Assembly (NCBI GenBank): GCA_903873705.1
Contig: CAIQPK010000051.1
Coordinates: 1-51,815, forward strand
Direction: 5' to 3'
DNA length: 51,815 nt
Source of the DNA: an uncultured Acidobacteriota bacterium
GTDB lineage: Bacteria; Acidobacteriota; Terriglobia; Terriglobales; Acidobacteriaceae
Shown: positions 23,902 through 31,633 of the stretch, in pieces
Layout of the letters: each line of letters starts with the position of its first letter
Numbering within the stretch: position 1 is the first letter of the stretch
The notes under the pieces: model-generated
The model's database searches: none
Seen by the model: only the letters and a program-made list of their open reading frames with translations
What the model was told of the DNA's origin: nothing
Translations under genes and position numbers: made by a program

Positions 23902-26900
23902 CTAAACAGCCACAGCCAGCCGCCGCGCATGCAGGCTCTGCAACGCCTCCACCCGCCGCGTCCCGCTCTGCATCGACTCAATCCCTTCCACCGCAGCCCT
24001 CGCCGCAGCCATCGTCGTAATCGTCGGCACCCGCGCCAGCACCGCCGCGCCGCGGATTGCCTGATCGTCGAACACCCGCTCCTGCCCCTGCGGCGTATTC
24101 ACAATCAACTGGATCCGTTCGCCCTTGATCAGGTCGACAACGTTTGGCCGTCCCTCGTTCACCTTGTACACCCGCTCCACCTGCAACCCGCCGGCCTCCA
24201 GCAGCGCCGCCGTCCCATGCGTAGCCACCAGCCGGAACCCGAGATCGACGTACCGCTTCGCCAGCGGAAGCACGTTCTCTTTGTCGCGGTCGTTCACGCT
24301 GAAGAACACCGTACCCTCCAGCGGCAGATGCAGTCCCGCCGCCGTCTGTGCCTTGGCAAACGCCTCGCCAAAATTATCCGCCACGCCCATCACTTCGCCG
24401 GTCGACTTCATTTCCGGCCCAAGCACCGGATCCACACCCTGGAACTTGCCCCACGGAAACACCGGCGACTTCACAAAGAAGTGCTCGCCCGTCCCCAGGT
24501 CCTTGCCGCTGGCCAACTCCTCTGGCAGCAACTCCTTCAGCGTCCGCCCGGTCATCAACCGCGCCGCCACCTTCGCCAGTTGCACGCCCGTCGCCTTCGA
24601 CACATAAGGCACCGTGCGCGAAGCTCGCGGGTTCACCTCAATCACAAACACCTTGCCCCGCTGAATCGCAAATTGCAAATTGCAAAGCCCGATCACATTC
24701 AGCGCCAGCGCCAGCTTCCGCGTGTAAACGCGAATCGTCTCCAGCACCTCCGGCGACAGATCGACCGCCGGCAGCACGCACGACGAGTCCCCCGAGTGCA
24801 CCCCGGCCTCTTCGATATGCTGCATGATCCCGGCAATAATCACATCCTTGCCATCGCACAGCGCGTCGACATCCACCTCCTGCGCATCCTCCAGGAAGTG
24901 GTCGATCAGCACGGGCCGCTCCTGCGAGTACTCAATCGCCGAGCTCATGTACTTCACCACTTCGGCATCGTCATAAGCGATCACCATCGCACGCCCGCCC
25001 AGCACATATGAAGGCCGCACCAGTACCGGATACTCCACCCGCTTCGCTCCAGCAAGCGCTTCCTCAACGCTCGTGGCCAGCGCTCCCGGCGGCTGCGGAA
25101 TCTCCAGCTCGTTGATCAGCTTCTGAAACCGCTTCCGGTCCTCCGCCAGCTCAATCGACTCCGGCGACGTCCCAATAATCGGCACACCCGCCGCCTTCAA
25201 CGGCAGGCTCAAATTCAGCGGCGTCTGCCCGCCGAACTGCACAATCATCCCAATCTCCGCCCCGCCCGACGCCTCGTGCTCATACACCGCGAGCACGTCT
25301 TCCAGCGTCAGCGGCTCAAAGTACAACCGGTCGCTCGTGTCGTAGTCGGTAGACACCGTCTCCGGATTGCAATTCACCATGATCGTCTCGTAGCCGTCGT
25401 CCCGCAGCGCAAACGCCGCATGGCAGCAGCAGTAATCGAACTCAATCCCCTGCCCAATCCGGTTCGGCCCCGAGCCAAGAATGATGACCTTCCTCTTAGC
25501 CGTCGGCGGCATCTCGTCTTCTTCGTCGTAGCAGGAGTAAAGATACGGCGTCGAGCTATCGAACTCACCCGCGCACGTATCCACCATCTTGAATACCGGC
25601 TTCACACCCAGCTTCCTGCGCAGCTCCGCCACGCTCGCCACCGCGCCCTTGCCTTCCAGCTTCCACACTGCAGCCAGACGCTCATCGGATATCCCCATCC
25701 GCTTCGCCTGCTGCATCGTCGCCGTGTCCATCGCCTCAGGCTTCACTTCACCCACAGCTTTCAGTTCATCGGAAATCTGCTTCATCTGGTCCAGGAACCA
25801 CGGATCCATCCCCGTCAGCTGCGCCACCTCGCGCACCGTCTTGCCTACGTCGAACGCATAGCGCAGATACGCCAGCCGCTCTGGATGCGGCGTCACCAGC
25901 CGCTGCGTCAGCCGCCGCGGATCGATGTTGTCGTTGGTCCCCTTCTTGCCCGTCTCCAGCGACCGCACCGCCTTCATCATCGCTTCCTTGAAGGTCCTGC
26001 CAATCGCCATCACTTCACCCACAGACTTCATCTGCGGCCCCAGCGTCTCATTCGCTCCGCTGAACTTCTCAAACTGCCACTTCGGAATCTTCACGACCAC
26101 ATAATCAATCGTCGGCTCAAAGCACGCCGGCGTGGCCTTCGTAATATCGTTCTGCAACTCGTCGAGCGTATAGCCCACCGCCAGCCGCGCCGCAATCTTC
26201 GCAATCGGAAACCCCGTAGCCTTCGACGCCAGCGCCGACGACCGTGACACGCGCGGGTTCATCTCGATCACCGTCATGCGCCCGTTCTGCGGATTCACCG
26301 CGAACTGCACATTCGATCCACCCGTCTCCACGCCAATCTCGCGGATCACCGCAATCGCCGCATCGCGCATGGCCTGGTACTCGCGGTCCGTCAGCGTCTG
26401 CGCCGGAGCCACCGTAATCGAGTCGCCCGTATGCACGCCCATCGGATCGAAGTTCTCAATCGAGCAGATGATCACCACGTTGTCGTTCAGGTCGCGAACA
26501 ACCTCCAACTCATACTCTTTCCACCCCAGCACGCTCTCTTCCAGCAGGCACTCATGCACCGGCGAAAGATCCAGCCCGCGCGACAAAATCTCCATCAGCT
26601 CTTCGCGGTTATAAGCGATGCCGCCGCCCGACCCACCCAGCGTAAAGCTAGGCCGAATCACCACCGGAAAGCCAATCTTCGTCGCATACTCCAGCCCATC
26701 GCGAATGTTCGTAATCAGCGCGGACTTCGGCATATCCAGCCCGATCTTGTTCATCGCATCCTTGAACAACAACCGGTCTTCCGCCTTCTTGATCGCCTCC
26801 AGCTTCGCGCCGATCAGCTCAATCCCCAGCTGATCCAGCACACCCTTGTCGGCCAGATCGACCGCCAAATTCAGCGCCGTCTGCCCACCCACCGTAGGCA

Positions 26901-27183
26901 GCACCGCAAACTTGCCTTCCCGACCCTGCATCATCTCCGCTTCCACCCGCAGAATCTCTTCCACGTACGCCGGCGTCAACGGCTCAATATAAGTCCGGTC
27001 GGCAACATCAGGATCAGTCATGATCGACGCCGGGTTCGAGTTCACCAGCACCACCTCATACCCCTCGGCCTTCAGTGCCTTGCAAGCCTGCGTCCCGGAG
27101 TAATCGAACTCAGCCGACTGCCCAATCACAATCGGCCCCGAGCCGATCACCAAAATCTTCGCGATGTCATTCCTGCGTGGCAT
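23902..27183 (-). CDS. carB: Carbamoyl-phosphate synthase large subunit
   Basis: 1093 aa, full length. Makes carbamoyl phosphate for pyrimidines and arginine from bicarbonate, ATP and ammonia supplied by CarA. Two homologous ATP-grasp halves: the first starts [22 protein letters not shown] and carries [14 protein letters not shown] and [20 protein letters not shown]. The second starts [20 protein letters not shown] and carries [13 protein letters not shown] and [20 protein letters not shown]. The C-terminal ~150 residues are the MGS-like allosteric domain. Start ATG 27183 with AGGAAAG upstream. It is separated from carA by two membrane-protein genes, which is unusual. Confidence 0.97.
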
Positions 27184-27259
27184 ATGCGTGTTCTTACTTT
27201 CCTGCGCCGCTTGTTTTCAAAGCTCCTCAGTCAAGGAGCATCGGCGGCGCGTAAATCGG

Positions 27260-28409
27260 TTAGATCGTTACGGCGTCTGCATTTTGTTGCGATAGTGAAG
27301 AAAAAGATTGGCTCAAAAATACCGGATACCACTTTGTACGGACGCCCATCAAAAGGCCGCCCGTCGCCATGCTTAGCGCGATGACCACCACAGCGACCCG
27401 GCTCAACCTCGGCATCTCCGGAAACTCGGCCGGCGCTGCGTGCATGGCAACCACACAAAGCACCAGGAACGTCGTCAAACCCGCCAGAGCCTGCCACCGC
27501 GCCAGGTCCCATCCGAAAAAGTTCATGGACAGCGGAGCCAGCGCGGCGAATCACGTAGAGCAACACAAAAGTCGTTGGCCCAAACGCGACGGCACAAATA
27601 ATCTGTTTCGCCCACCACTGAAACTCCGCCATGTGCCCTAGCATCATCACCGCGTTGTCCTTCGCAGACCTCACCAGCACATCGAAGACTTCCTGTTGCG
27701 GCACAAAGTCCACGCGTGATTGGATCATCTGCTCCAGTGCCTTTGCTTTGACTGCTCCCATCGGTGCCCGCAGCGCCACCGCACAAGTAATCGCCAGGCT
27801 CACCACAAGAATCGCGCCCATGCTCACGTAAGCGAACCGCTTCCGCTCCCGCGCCCCTTGCAGCAAAAAACTCAGCAGGATCACCGGCAGGAAAACAAAC
27901 AGGAACATCTCATGCACCAGCAGCGCCACGCACAGCACCGGCATCGTCAGCGCCACCCTCAATCGAAGGTCGCGCACTAGTAAAACCGCCAGCGTCAAAC
28001 AAGCCAGCGGAATATCCAGGTAGCCATTCAAGCTCGAGAAAAACGTAGCCACATAGCTCGCCGCGAATATCGCGATCGTCACCCGCCCTGCAGGTTGCGC
28101 ATACAAACCTGACTTCCGGACAAACGCAACGTAAAGCAGCATCAGCGTTCCAAGAAGCGCAAACGACACCACCGCAAAACGTCCATAATGCCAAAGCTCA
28201 AGCGGTCTCCCCAGCGCCGCCCCGAATAGACCGCGCTTCACGAACCCCAGGCTGTAGTCCACCTGTCCCTGCGTTGCCGCCCAGTAACTCGGTGCCTGCA
28301 ACCCTTTCATCAGCGACACAAATCCCAACACAAACGCTGTCAACGTCCACGAAGCCTTCTCGTCCTGAAAAAGACGAAGCCTTCCGGACGGCGCGTCGTC
28401 CGTTCTCAC
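27260..28409 (-). pseudogene. Polytopic membrane protein with a frameshift near its 3' end
   Basis: From GTG 28409 the frame encodes about eight hydrophobic segments (WTLTAFVLGFVSLMKGL, ...LDIPLACLTLAVLLVR, MPVLCVALLVHEMFLFVFLP...) up to ...LLYVIRRAGSA. It then turns into non-membrane Gly/Arg-rich sequence. The -1-related frame, open from a stop at 27551-27553 to 27260, supplies the natural continuation PLSMNFFGWDLARWQALAGLTTFLVLCVV and a final helix. An extra base within 27527-27550 (for example GCTGGCT for GCTGCT) would explain it. The family looks like a cell-surface polysaccharide or lipid membrane enzyme but I cannot name it. GGAGG nine bases before the GTG lies inside a copied fragment of carA. 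An ATG at 28448, itself a copied carB start, is an alternative. Confidence 0.7.
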
Positions 28410-28448
28410 TTCGTCCAGTCCTCCATCATCGACATTCCTGCGTGGCAT
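28406..28448. repeat. Junction scar: first 16 bp of carB fused to last 28 bp of carA
   Basis: Read on the minus strand, 28448-28433 repeats carB's start ATGCCACGCAGGAATG exactly (compare 27183-27168). It is followed at once by 28433-28406, which matches the carA 3' end and stop (30262-30235) in 27 of 28 bases. The two pieces share one base at the joint. The carA piece brings its GGAGG and GTGA, which now serve as ribosome site and start for the frameshifted gene. Confidence 0.85.
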
Positions 28449-28486
28449 GCGTTTCCAATCTCTCGCGTGTCTTATAACGACCTCAA

Positions 28487-30238
28487 CTAGCCCGTCGTCT
28501 TCTGTCCTGTCCAACTCACAGCGCTAACCCTATACTCGCTCATCGAGTACCCCGGATAAAGGTCGTCCCAAAGCACCTGCATCTGACGATCGATCTGGCC
28601 TCGGTACGGGCTGTCCTTCCGCAACGCCAGTCCGTAATTCGCTGCGCCGGCGATGACGTCATACTCACGCAGCAACGCAGGGTCCGACAGCATCACACCG
28701 CGTTGATACGTATAAGCAGGGTGAGGAAGCCAGATGATGTCCGGCTTCCGCCGCAGCAGCGCATTCATGCTGACCCCGTGATGCGCAATTTCCGCATCAT
28801 TGAGCCCGGCGAGATCGATCAACGTTTTCTGCGGATTCTCAGCGCCCAGATAGCCCACTTCGGTCGCGGCAAGGGTCACTCCCCTGGGCAGCGGCTTCAC
28901 CAGCGCGTCGGACATCGCCGTGATCGTGCGAAACCAATCCGCCTCTGGTAAAGCTTTGGCAGCCACCACAGTCAGCTCCACCGGCGCGTAGACCTGGCTC
29001 CTGTTCTCGACTTTGCGATCCACATAGTCCAGGACCGCCGTGTGCGCTCGGCTCGGAACGAACAGCAACATCACACCGGCGGCAGCGAGGGCATGACCCA
29101 CCCACGCTCCTCGCGAAATGCCGCGTGATCCGCTCCCGATGCCCGCTGCAACAAACCTGTCCAGCAGCAGCAATCCCGGCACCAGGAAGAATCCCAGATA
29201 CGGGACGTAGTACCGCGAATCCAATCCCATGATCTGTGTCACGGTCAGTAGATAGGCAAACGTCAGCAGGGCAGGCACAAGGCAACACGCCACCATCCAC
29301 CCGTGTGCGCGCCGCGCAAACAAAGCCATCAGCAACAAGAAGGGACGACAGGCAGCCAGCACGCCCACAGCATTCGAGAACGGCAACCAGCGCTGCGCAT
29401 AGCCTTCATATCCGTGCTGGCTCTTCACATAAAAACTCAACGGCAAAGCCGAGTGAAAGTATGTCTGGCAAAGGCCAAGGTAAAAAGCAATGCCGCCGCC
29501 CACTATCGACACCACCGTCAACGTCTCACGCCAACTCCGGGCCCTAATGGACGCCGCTGGTCGTAAAAACTGCAGGAGCAACACCATCGTGCTCACCGCC
29601 AACGCCGCCTCCGGCCGGACCAGGAAGAACAAGACGCCCATCCCACCAACCGCCTGGGGCCGCACTCTTCCCTCCGCCCAGCCTAGCGCCAGCCCCACAA
29701 ACCATCCGCCCAGCAGCACGCCCAGCATCGTCTCCATGCCGTTCACTGAGTTCGGCAGATAGCACCGGGTCAACAGCAGCGGCACAGCCACCATCGGTGC
29801 CACGCGCCAGGCACTCGACATATAGGCGCTACAGGCGTTCTTCGCCACCGCCCAGGAAATCGCCCCCACCGCCCCCACTGAGCAAAGCCACGAGCCCACG
29901 ACCAACGCGCTCGACATCGACACGGGAAGAAAGCTCAGCACCAGCACCACCAGGCCCCACAACTGGCTCGTCTCGCCATACGTAGGGATGCCATCCGGGT
30001 TCCACGAAATGCCCAGACCGGATCGCATATTCACCGCGTACCGGAAAAACATGTACGCATCATCGAAGAGCAGCACCCGGTGCACCTGCATCCACAGCAT
30101 GGCAGTCCAGTACGCGGCGGCAGCAACAAGGAGCACTGCAGTCAGCCAGAATGCCCCACGCGAAAGCCACTCGCCGTTCTCGGAAAAGAATCTTTCCACG
30201 CCAGAAGACCACGTCTTCATGGAGCGCACGGAAGTCAC
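28487..30238 (-). CDS. GT-C-like polytopic membrane glycosyltransferase-type protein
   Basis: 583 aa. About ten to eleven membrane helices. The first periplasmic loop carries [15 protein letters not shown] and [21 protein letters not shown], the acidic and GxTSxLW pattern seen in bacterial lipid-linked-sugar transferases (GT-C fold). A hydrophilic C-terminal domain (~430-583) contains [13 protein letters not shown] and ends [12 protein letters not shown]. Start GTG 30238 overlaps the carA stop (GTGA) with GGAGGA nine bases before, so it is coupled to carA; ATG 30220 is possible but lacks a ribosome site. Substrate unknown. Its position between carA and carB is odd. Confidence 0.75.
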
Positions 30239-31371
30239 TTCTTCCAGTCCTCCATCATCGACCGGAACTGTTTGAACAGATAATGCGAATCATGCGGCCC
30301 GGGGCTGGCCTCCGGATGGTACTGCACGCTGAACATCGGGTCCGTCTTGTGCTTCAACCCAGCCAGCGTGTCATCGTTCAAATTCACATGCGTCGGCACC
30401 ACATCATCCGGCAGCGAAGCCGGATCGACATTGAAGTTGTGGTTCTGCGCCGTAATCTCGACCTTCCCCGTCTCCAGGTTCTTGATCGGATGATTCCCGC
30501 CGTGGTGCCCGAACTTCAGCTTGTACGTCTTGCCGCCCAGCGCGAGCCCGAAAATCTGGTGCCCCAGGCAAATCCCGAACATCGGCTTCTTGCCCTGCAA
30601 CGCCTGTACGTTCGCAATCGCATAATCGAGAGGCTCCGGATCACCCGGCCCATTCGAAAAGAAAATCCCGTCCGGCTCCATAGCCAGCACATCGGCCGCC
30701 GAGGTCCGCGCCGGCACCACCGTCACCCTGCAGTTCTCGCGCGCCAGCATGCGCAGAATGTTTTCCTTGATGCCGTAGTCGTACGCCACCACGTGCAGCG
30801 TGTCCTTCGCCGCCGCATCCGCCGCGGGCAGCAGTTTGTCGCCCGTCTGATTCTTTGCCTCGCTCGCGTCCCACGTGTAAGCCGTCTTCGTACTCACGAC
30901 CGAAGCCAGGTCCGTGCCATCCATCTTCTTATGCGCCAGCGCCTTCGCCACCAGCGCGGGAATATCCTCCACCGCCGTCGAAATCACGCCCCGCAGGCAG
31001 CCATTCGCCCGCAGGTGACGCACCACGGCCCGCGTATCGATCTCCGCAATCACCGGCACGCCGCTGCGTTCCAGGTACTCGTCCGCAACCTCGGTCGAAC
31101 GCCAGTTCGAGCTCACCGCCGAGAACTCCCGCGTCACCAGCCCCTCGATATACGGCCGCGCCGACTCTGCATCGCTCGGCGAAGTCCCATAGTTCCCAAT
31201 ATGTGGATTCGTCAGGACAACAATCTGACCCGAATAAGAAGGGTCGGTAAAGATTTCCTGATAGCCGCTCAGCGACGTGTTGAACACGACTTCGCCGACA
31301 CGTTCGGCCACAGCGCCAAACGCTTTCCCTCTAAAAATGCGCCCGTCTTCGAGCGCCAGAACTGCCTGCAT
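30235..31371 (-). CDS. carA: Carbamoyl-phosphate synthase small (glutaminase) subunit
   Basis: 378 aa from ATG 31371, preceded by GGAGAGA; a longer frame to 31476 lacks a ribosome site. The N-terminal CPSase domain ([38 protein letters not shown]) is followed by a class I glutaminase with Cys268 in FGICLGHQ, His352 and Glu354 in QYHPEASPG, plus [10 protein letters not shown] and HHGGNHP. It delivers ammonia to CarB. Its last codons contain the ribosome site and overlapping start of the next membrane-protein gene. Confidence 0.97.
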
Positions 31372-31440
31372 TGTCTCTCCGTAAACCAAATCGAGAGCCG
31401 ATTTGTTCAATTCTATCAGCCACAATTGTGCGGAAAACAC

Positions 31441-31470
31441 GAAAGCCCGGCCGAAGCCGGGCTTTGTTTT
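31441..31470 (-). terminator. Terminator after the small His/Cys-rich gene
   Basis: Perfect stem AAAGCCCGGC (31442-31451) and GCCGGGCTTT (31456-31465) with loop CGAA. It begins 25 bases past the stop of the 47-aa gene. T-rich sequence lies on both sides (GTTTT on plus, CGTGTTTTCC on minus), so it may act in both directions. Confidence 0.75.
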
Positions 31471-31489
31471 CAACACGCTTTACCGCCAG

Positions 31490-31633
31490 CTAATTCCAGC
31501 GGCAAACCCGATGTCCATGGCGATACCAGCAATGCCGGTGCCGGTGGTGGTGGTCCTGTGCCTGCGCCGGCACCACAACCCCAGCCAGCGTAATTCCGGC
31601 GACGAGAAGCATAAGAGCACGTTTCACGATCAT
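31490..31633 (-). CDS. Secreted 47-aa His/Cys/Arg-rich peptide
   Basis: ATG 31633 follows a strong GGAGAAAG site. Residues 1-26 are a signal peptide (basic MIVKR, hydrophobic core, AQA cleavage). The mature peptide of about 21 residues starts QDHHHRHRHCWYRHGH and ends RVCRWN: seven His, two Cys, two Trp. Such a peptide should bind transition metals or carry one disulfide. It is its own transcription unit, with a terminator downstream and carA further on. Comparable tiny exported His-rich proteins occur in Acidobacteria and Rhizobiales, mostly unstudied. Function unknown. Confidence 0.7.
   Translation of the reverse strand: MIVKRALMLLVAGITLAGVVVPAQAQDHHHRHRHCWYRHGHRVCRWN

Follow-up and report, generated by a model that had tools for sequence, protein, structure and literature searches.

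Stacked gene cassettes and a carB-head/carA-tail scar point to a probable passenger-gene slot between carA and carB in an uncultured member of the Acidobacteriaceae

The carbamoyl-phosphate synthase genes of an uncultured Acidobacteriota bacterium (family Acidobacteriaceae; assembly GCA_903873705.1) are separated by two unrelated cargo genes, here called X and Y, with a 43-base scar between them that consists of the start of carB joined to the end of carA. We consider the carA-carB junction to be probably a slot for passenger genes resembling a minimal mobile element (MME), where stacking of cassettes has occasionally taken place, one-sided homologous insertion being the probable route. The window (i.e., the whole stretch of DNA analyzed) is the 51,815 nucleotides of contig CAIQPK010000051.1; its genome is designated G000, and other G numbers denote the family genomes compared with it. 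Read along the minus strand, carA is followed by X, the scar, Y and carB. The small-subunit gene carA (30235..31476, given as the longest open reading frame [ORF]; the true start is probably further in) is 80-89% identical to the carA of congeners, and the TGA stop that closes its last 28 bases (30262-30235) overlaps the next start (GTGA). X (28487..30238), a hydrophobic protein of 583 aa with an FDDAYMFxRYA motif, has an ORF that opens in this carA stop, a later ATG start also being possible. Y (27260..28409), likewise hydrophobic, is broken, with a first part running from 28409 to ~27549 and a C-terminal part, in another frame, at 27526-27260. The large-subunit gene, carB (23902..27183), follows; among the matches listed, mostly from other phyla, its best match in a named organism was Edaphobacter sp. 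RYN_3 (84%). An Rfam scan of 26900-31500 gave no match.

As the sequence-only reading had claimed, the first part of the scar (28433..28448) reproduces the first 16 bases of carB (27183-27168) exactly (16/16) and the second part (28406..28433) differs from the final 28 bases of carA at one position (27/28 identical), with base 28433 common to both. The second part supplies Y with a GGAGG ribosome-site-like stretch and a GTGA start, and the carB-derived ATG of the first part is also in frame with Y. Both pairs were recovered by an independent repeat finder applied to 26900-31500. In the 4.18-Mb, 94-contig G000 genome, where the 16-mer alone was searched, its exact copies numbered two (the carB start and the scar), i.e., it was not scattered over many unrelated loci. 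A 24-base piece of the carA tail, searched in the window, occurred there twice, a result seen in 0/100 shuffles. When up to 3 mismatches were allowed, the 16-mer gave at least two matches in 13/100 window shuffles and so is not rare at that tolerance; a chance origin of the scar is ruled out by the exact match, its position and its abutment on the carA tail. Among 172 carA tails, that of G000 itself was closest to the scar tail (27/28; next best 24/28), which points to the G000 lineage, or one near it, as the source. The 16-base head is common (53/172 carB heads) and does not tell the source. Together the copies form direct repeats around X (28 bp) and around Y (16 bp).

The interval between carA and carB varies widely in the family. 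The two genes flanked a gap in 162 of the 166 genomes retrieved (a gap length could not be read from the remaining 4), a set that leans to close relatives because carB positions were taken from the matches listed. Gap length ranged from -1 to 3074 bp, with 14 gaps of 20 bp or less, 58 of 21-150 bp and 90 of more than 150 bp, 29 of which exceeded 1000 bp. Searched against Pfam, 97 ORFs from these 90 occupied gaps matched 20 families (Y1_Tnp 14, CarboxypepD_reg 12, N6_N4_Mtase 8, ParE 7, XhoI 6, GT87 3, GIY-YIG 2, TIR 1, and others), so that restriction-modification proteins, toxins (ParE), Y1-transposase-like proteins, secreted proteins and TIR proteins are all represented. The proposal that this gap swaps membrane-protein cargo is therefore upheld as regards the exchange and too narrow as regards the cargo. 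In 44/90 occupied gaps, the earliest ORF of 75 aa or more overlapped the carA stop by 4 bases; this count is weak alone, because any TGA stop preceded by A, G or T creates such a start by itself. The carA stop was TGA in 70/90 occupied gaps vs. 21/72 empty ones (p = 6e-10, uncorrected for relatedness), and the excess recurred within genera (occupied vs. empty: g1, 13/18 vs. 1/6; g32, 6/8 vs. 0/8; g35, 8/15 vs. 3/29), a pattern suggesting that the coupled carA end is brought in with cargo or selected for by it. Genes of the Y1_Tnp family, which we take to be RAYT-like, recur as gap cargo across genera (Pfam-checked in L141, L153, L140 and L195). Genus g9 has a DNA methyltransferase paired with an XhoI-family restriction enzyme between carA and carB (L184:167-1914, L170:907-1923); the L184 pair opens in the carA stop, the L170 methyltransferase lies behind another cargo gene with no visible scar, and similar pairs were seen by eye in L171, L178, L202, L203 and L208.

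Some relatives carry X or Y alone in this same gap. Matches to X were found in 12/28 genomes of G000's genus, some of them incomplete. Two (G006 and G008) have X between carA and carB and no Y; X opens in the carA stop in G006, and its ORF begins 193 bp past that stop in G008. In G016 and G020, the position of X relative to the gap was not readable since the contigs end. A further X follows carA to the contig end in G007 (L009:1-1400, minus strand) and is damaged, with an in-frame stop and ~200 bp missing inside; cargo decay in the slot is thus not limited to the Y of G000. No match to Y was found in the other 27 congeners of G000. The arrangement carA-Y-carB is present in four genomes of genus g35 (G061, G362, G251 and G388), and in each of them Y begins its frame within the carA stop (ATGA or GTGA), matching the situation at the scar. 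Another genome, G305, holds both cargoes in the opposite order, carA-Y-X-carB. It had been predicted that some relatives would carry only the first cargo gene and others only the second, each directly after carA with the GTGA overlap. Both kinds exist, and an opening in the carA stop was found for Y in 4/4 cases and for X in G006 only; a constant presence of both genes with no scar in outgroups, the outcome that would have spoken against the idea, was not seen.

Judging from their hydrophobic sequences, X and Y appear to be multi-pass membrane proteins, and neither gave anything beyond marginal matches against Pfam, NCBIfam or PDB sequences. Seven residues of X (F58, D59, D60, M63, F64, R66 and Y67) are invariant across 14 homologs; we take such a motif to be typical of GT-C glycosyltransferases, and X may be glycosyltransferase-like. 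Its single-sequence predicted structure was poor (mean predicted local distance difference test [pLDDT] score of 40). In the X tree, the G000 copy grouped with that of G305 with support of 89/88, below the level starred by the tool, and the copies located at carAB did not form one clade (3 changes). Besides Y itself, 398 family genomes contained 7 strong Y homologs (E below 1e-20), 5/7 inside the carA-carB gap; the Y tree did not settle their branching order. Relative to homologs of 412-417 aa, the Y of G000 reads through ~300 codons before the frame is lost, a ~70 bp segment being missing and a frameshift lying near 27549. Y thus appears to be broken now, and an assembly error seems less likely for a missing block of ~70 bp. 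The downstream gene had been expected to keep a carA-derived ribosome site and GTGA start; both are indeed kept, with the qualification that Y is disrupted and that the carB ATG is in frame with it too.

Scars of this kind are present elsewhere in the family. The 90 occupied gaps (77,309 bp) were each scored against the carA tail and carB head of the same genome, with 360 comparisons to reversed or reverse-complemented heads and tails as decoys. Five matches in four genomes (G000, G305, G379 and G039) scored 13 or more (25, 22, 20, 16 and 13), and the decoys reached a maximum of 11 (0/360 above). The scores of these five matches were never reached in 60 shuffles of each of 52 gaps, the shuffle maximum for the head in the G000 gap being 15. 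Two further true matches, in G383 and in G269 (the latter inside a methyltransferase gene), scored 12; these were left out of the count, as was a score of 11 in G111, from the genus of G039, which we read as the G039 scar in a decayed state. The matches of G383 (12) and G046 (10) also exceeded their own 60 shuffles.

In G305, a 22-base carB start (encoding MPRRNDI; 19/22 to its own carB) lies between Y and X and opens the X frame. In G379, the first 32 bases of the second cargo gene match the head of its own carB at 28/32; this gene (L147:1570-2022, minus strand) encodes a CarboxypepD_reg protein that starts with MPRRNDIPKIL and continues into a hydrophobic stretch resembling a signal peptide, so that this peptide seems to begin with the first 9-11 residues of CarB. 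In G039, a 25-base carA tail (24/25) separates a Y1_Tnp gene from a weakly GIY-YIG-like gene. The GIY-YIG-like gene shares 53% identity with a G180 gene lying immediately behind carA, and in both genomes a toxin-antitoxin-like pair comes next; this gene parallels Y, whose relatives also directly follow carA. Each of these three scars sits between two cargo genes and retains one edge piece only. A search of the 398 genomes for the MPRRNDI-type start pattern found two copies in five of them (G305, G379, G205, G312 and G304); the second copy lies in the gap in G305 and G379, the two are far apart in G205 and G312, and that of G304 is presumably its second full carB. At all three carB-head scars (G000, G305 and G379) the gene that follows is in the reading frame of the carB ATG (3/3; chance 1/27), an agreement that is suggestive only.

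We propose that cargo lying between the two conserved core genes is exchanged via recombination in carA and carB. The slot of a G000 ancestor would have held Y, and an incoming fragment comprising carA, X and the carB start would have paired with carA by homology. The other end of the fragment would then have joined illegitimately, its carB breaking off after base 16 and running on into the last 28 bases of the resident carA. As a result, X would have been placed between carA and Y, leaving the carB-head/carA-tail scar, and the 28 retained carA bases would have left Y with its ribosome site and its start. Similar stackings may have occurred separately on the carA side in G039 (anchored in carA, as in G000) and on the carB side in G305 and G379 (anchored in carB), where the downstream gene would have come to open in frame at the carB start codon. 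We infer the order of events, the homologous anchor, the joining in one step and the natural uptake of DNA. One-sided insertion is preferred because it accounts for each of the four scars with a single joint.

Several observations weigh against this reading. The joint in G000 has an overlap of 1 base; laboratory one-sided insertions, in the account given in the relevant part of PMC3240628, mostly have overlaps of 3-10 bp and generally accompany a deletion. No deletion coupled to the insertion was found, since none of carA, X, Y and carB is missing and the only deletion lies inside Y. In a search of carA and carB for donor tracts, no genome was close enough to show a crossover; over most of the carB stretches covered, away from the joint as well as near it, G000 ranked lowest among 11 congeners in its likeness to g1. 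By eye, 11 genomes have two unrelated gap modules, and 6/11 have no scar. Six congeners (G009, G014, G015, G018, G019 and G023) have a resolved carA-carB gap and carry X elsewhere, so that X need not stem from this slot. The single-cargo relatives are distant from G000 (X, 45-52%, with one short G007 piece at 66%; Y, 36-39%) and are therefore not direct donors. Lastly, no excess of TGA stops is seen in g9, g34, g45, g63 and g66, in which almost every carA stop is TGA.

The origin first suggested for the scar was that carA-X-carB and carA-Y-carB came to lie in tandem, through a single crossover or in a merodiploid, and that the inner carB-carA block was then deleted. This route is feasible and yields the exact order of X, carB head, carA tail and Y; both single-cargo forms exist, and the opposite order of X and Y in G000 and G305, whose X genes group together, is what a tandem array could yield. 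However, two steps are required where one-sided insertion gives the same joint in one, and G305, G379 and G039 retain one piece only. Among the matches listed for 300 genomes, two full carB copies were found only in G304, where 460 kb lies between them and the assembly has 10% contamination; this absence of tandem copies is weak evidence because such copies are unstable. We therefore regard the tandem route as unlikely, though still the closest competitor. Insertion of genes beside the carA end or carB start by a transposase or other dedicated enzyme, e.g., the Y1-type transposases among the cargo, would fit the Y1_Tnp matches in 14/97 gap proteins and the G039 scar, which adjoins a Y1_Tnp gene. 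It is improbable considering that no transposase was recognized in the G000 gap, that the repeat search of this gap returned the scar copies and otherwise short or low-identity families, none of them an inverted pair bounding X or Y (cargo ends were not compared systematically), and that cargo varies at pheS-pheT and trpB-trpA too. Neither terminal inverted repeats nor a short target duplication, as expected of transposon insertion, was found, the 28-bp and 16-bp direct repeats being copies of the scar. Least probable of all is a local duplication by template switching, in which X and Y were neighbors already and replication placed copies of the carA end and carB start in between: it agrees with the scar tail being closest to the resident carA (27/28), and leaves unexplained both why the joined pieces are the boundaries of X and Y in single-cargo relatives and why a similar pattern occurs at three other loci.

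The Neisseria MME (Saunders and Snyder, 2002, cited in PMC3898611) consists, as described there, of whole-gene cassettes between two conserved genes, with restriction-modification genes among the cargo and exchange by recombination in the flanking genes. The carA-carB slot, with its conserved flanks, varying whole-gene cassettes and restriction-modification cargo, fits the definition quoted in PMC3898611 in these respects, and may or may not do so in its stipulation of solely homologous recombination: no integrase was recognized in the G000 gap, and transposase-like genes are present in some gaps. It differs from the MME in that cargo varies between species (one genome per species, kin of Edaphobacter and Granulicella) rather than strains, in having carB-head/carA-tail scars between stacked cassettes, and in cargo whose start often falls within the carA stop. 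Homology-facilitated illegitimate recombination, as outlined for Streptococcus pneumoniae, Acinetobacter baylyi and Pseudomonas stutzeri in the pertinent part of PMC3240628, combines one homologous end with one illegitimate joint and would account for every one of the four scars with a single event. The G000 locus differs from what is outlined there in its 1-base overlap, in showing no loss of a resident gene, and in that the homologous end is deduced; we liken it to this process and do not file it as a member, because a coupled deletion is lacking. The orphan immunity-gene arrays of the Vibrio cholerae type VI secretion system are also alike, in that successive one-sided insertions at a fixed anchor, pushing older cargo downstream, are proposed for them in the section of PMC5361080 concerned. 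Compared with the arrays presented in that section, the anchor here is a biosynthetic operon, carA and carB remain whole, and insertions would have come from either side.

No carA-carB cassette site in Acidobacteriota was found in the literature searched on carAB (mostly open access), nor were stacked scars and start capture at carAB found in the open-access literature searched. The carA-carB interval of Neisseria gonorrhoeae is a variable spacer that is rich in repeats and is not known to consist of gene cassettes with scars. Gene slots are usually inferred from presence and absence; here, fossil joints at four loci in one family preserve a trace of the way in which two cassettes ended up in a single slot and make the mechanism of stacking testable. 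The result is also that restriction and toxin genes are placed inside a core biosynthetic operon. As a more tentative extension, which we hold to be possible rather than probable, the carA tail and carB head may serve as portable sockets: cassettes would travel with such ends and stack on either side of a resident, a downstream gene could capture the carB start in frame, and X or Y could be lost cleanly again via the direct repeats of the scar. The operon would then hold a slow, reversible register of cassettes, as one of several such slots.

Two other operon pairs were compared in G000's genus. The pheS-pheT interval (L289-L317, L395-L406), an MME site in Neisseria, failed as a quiet control since the gap itself varies: it was -4 in 11/25 readable genomes and 306-4785 bp in 14/25. 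The remaining three of the 28 genomes gave no pheS match (G021), no readable pair (G007) or no pheT in the stretch fetched (G022). The trpB-trpA interval (L383, L365-L387) measured 298-463 bp in 6/22 readable genomes, G000 included; an ORF opens in the trpB stop in four genomes, and in G000 it is a small protein that does so. Because cargo varies at both pairs, carA-carB is one of several slots and not unique, and tightly coupled enzyme pairs (carAB, pheST and trpBA) are suggested as docking sites in these bacteria. No match in the pheS-pheT and trpB-trpA gaps was accepted as a scar. A 13-base match to the pheS tail in the 4.5-kb gap of L395 equals the weakest carAB scar (that of G305) and was judged to be due to chance because it does not begin at a gene boundary. 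The rplK gene was unusable as a control, there being no conserved gene after it in 26 loci of the genus. In the rplK region of G000 (L355), rplK is followed by an ORF whose product we take to resemble Uma2 nucleases.
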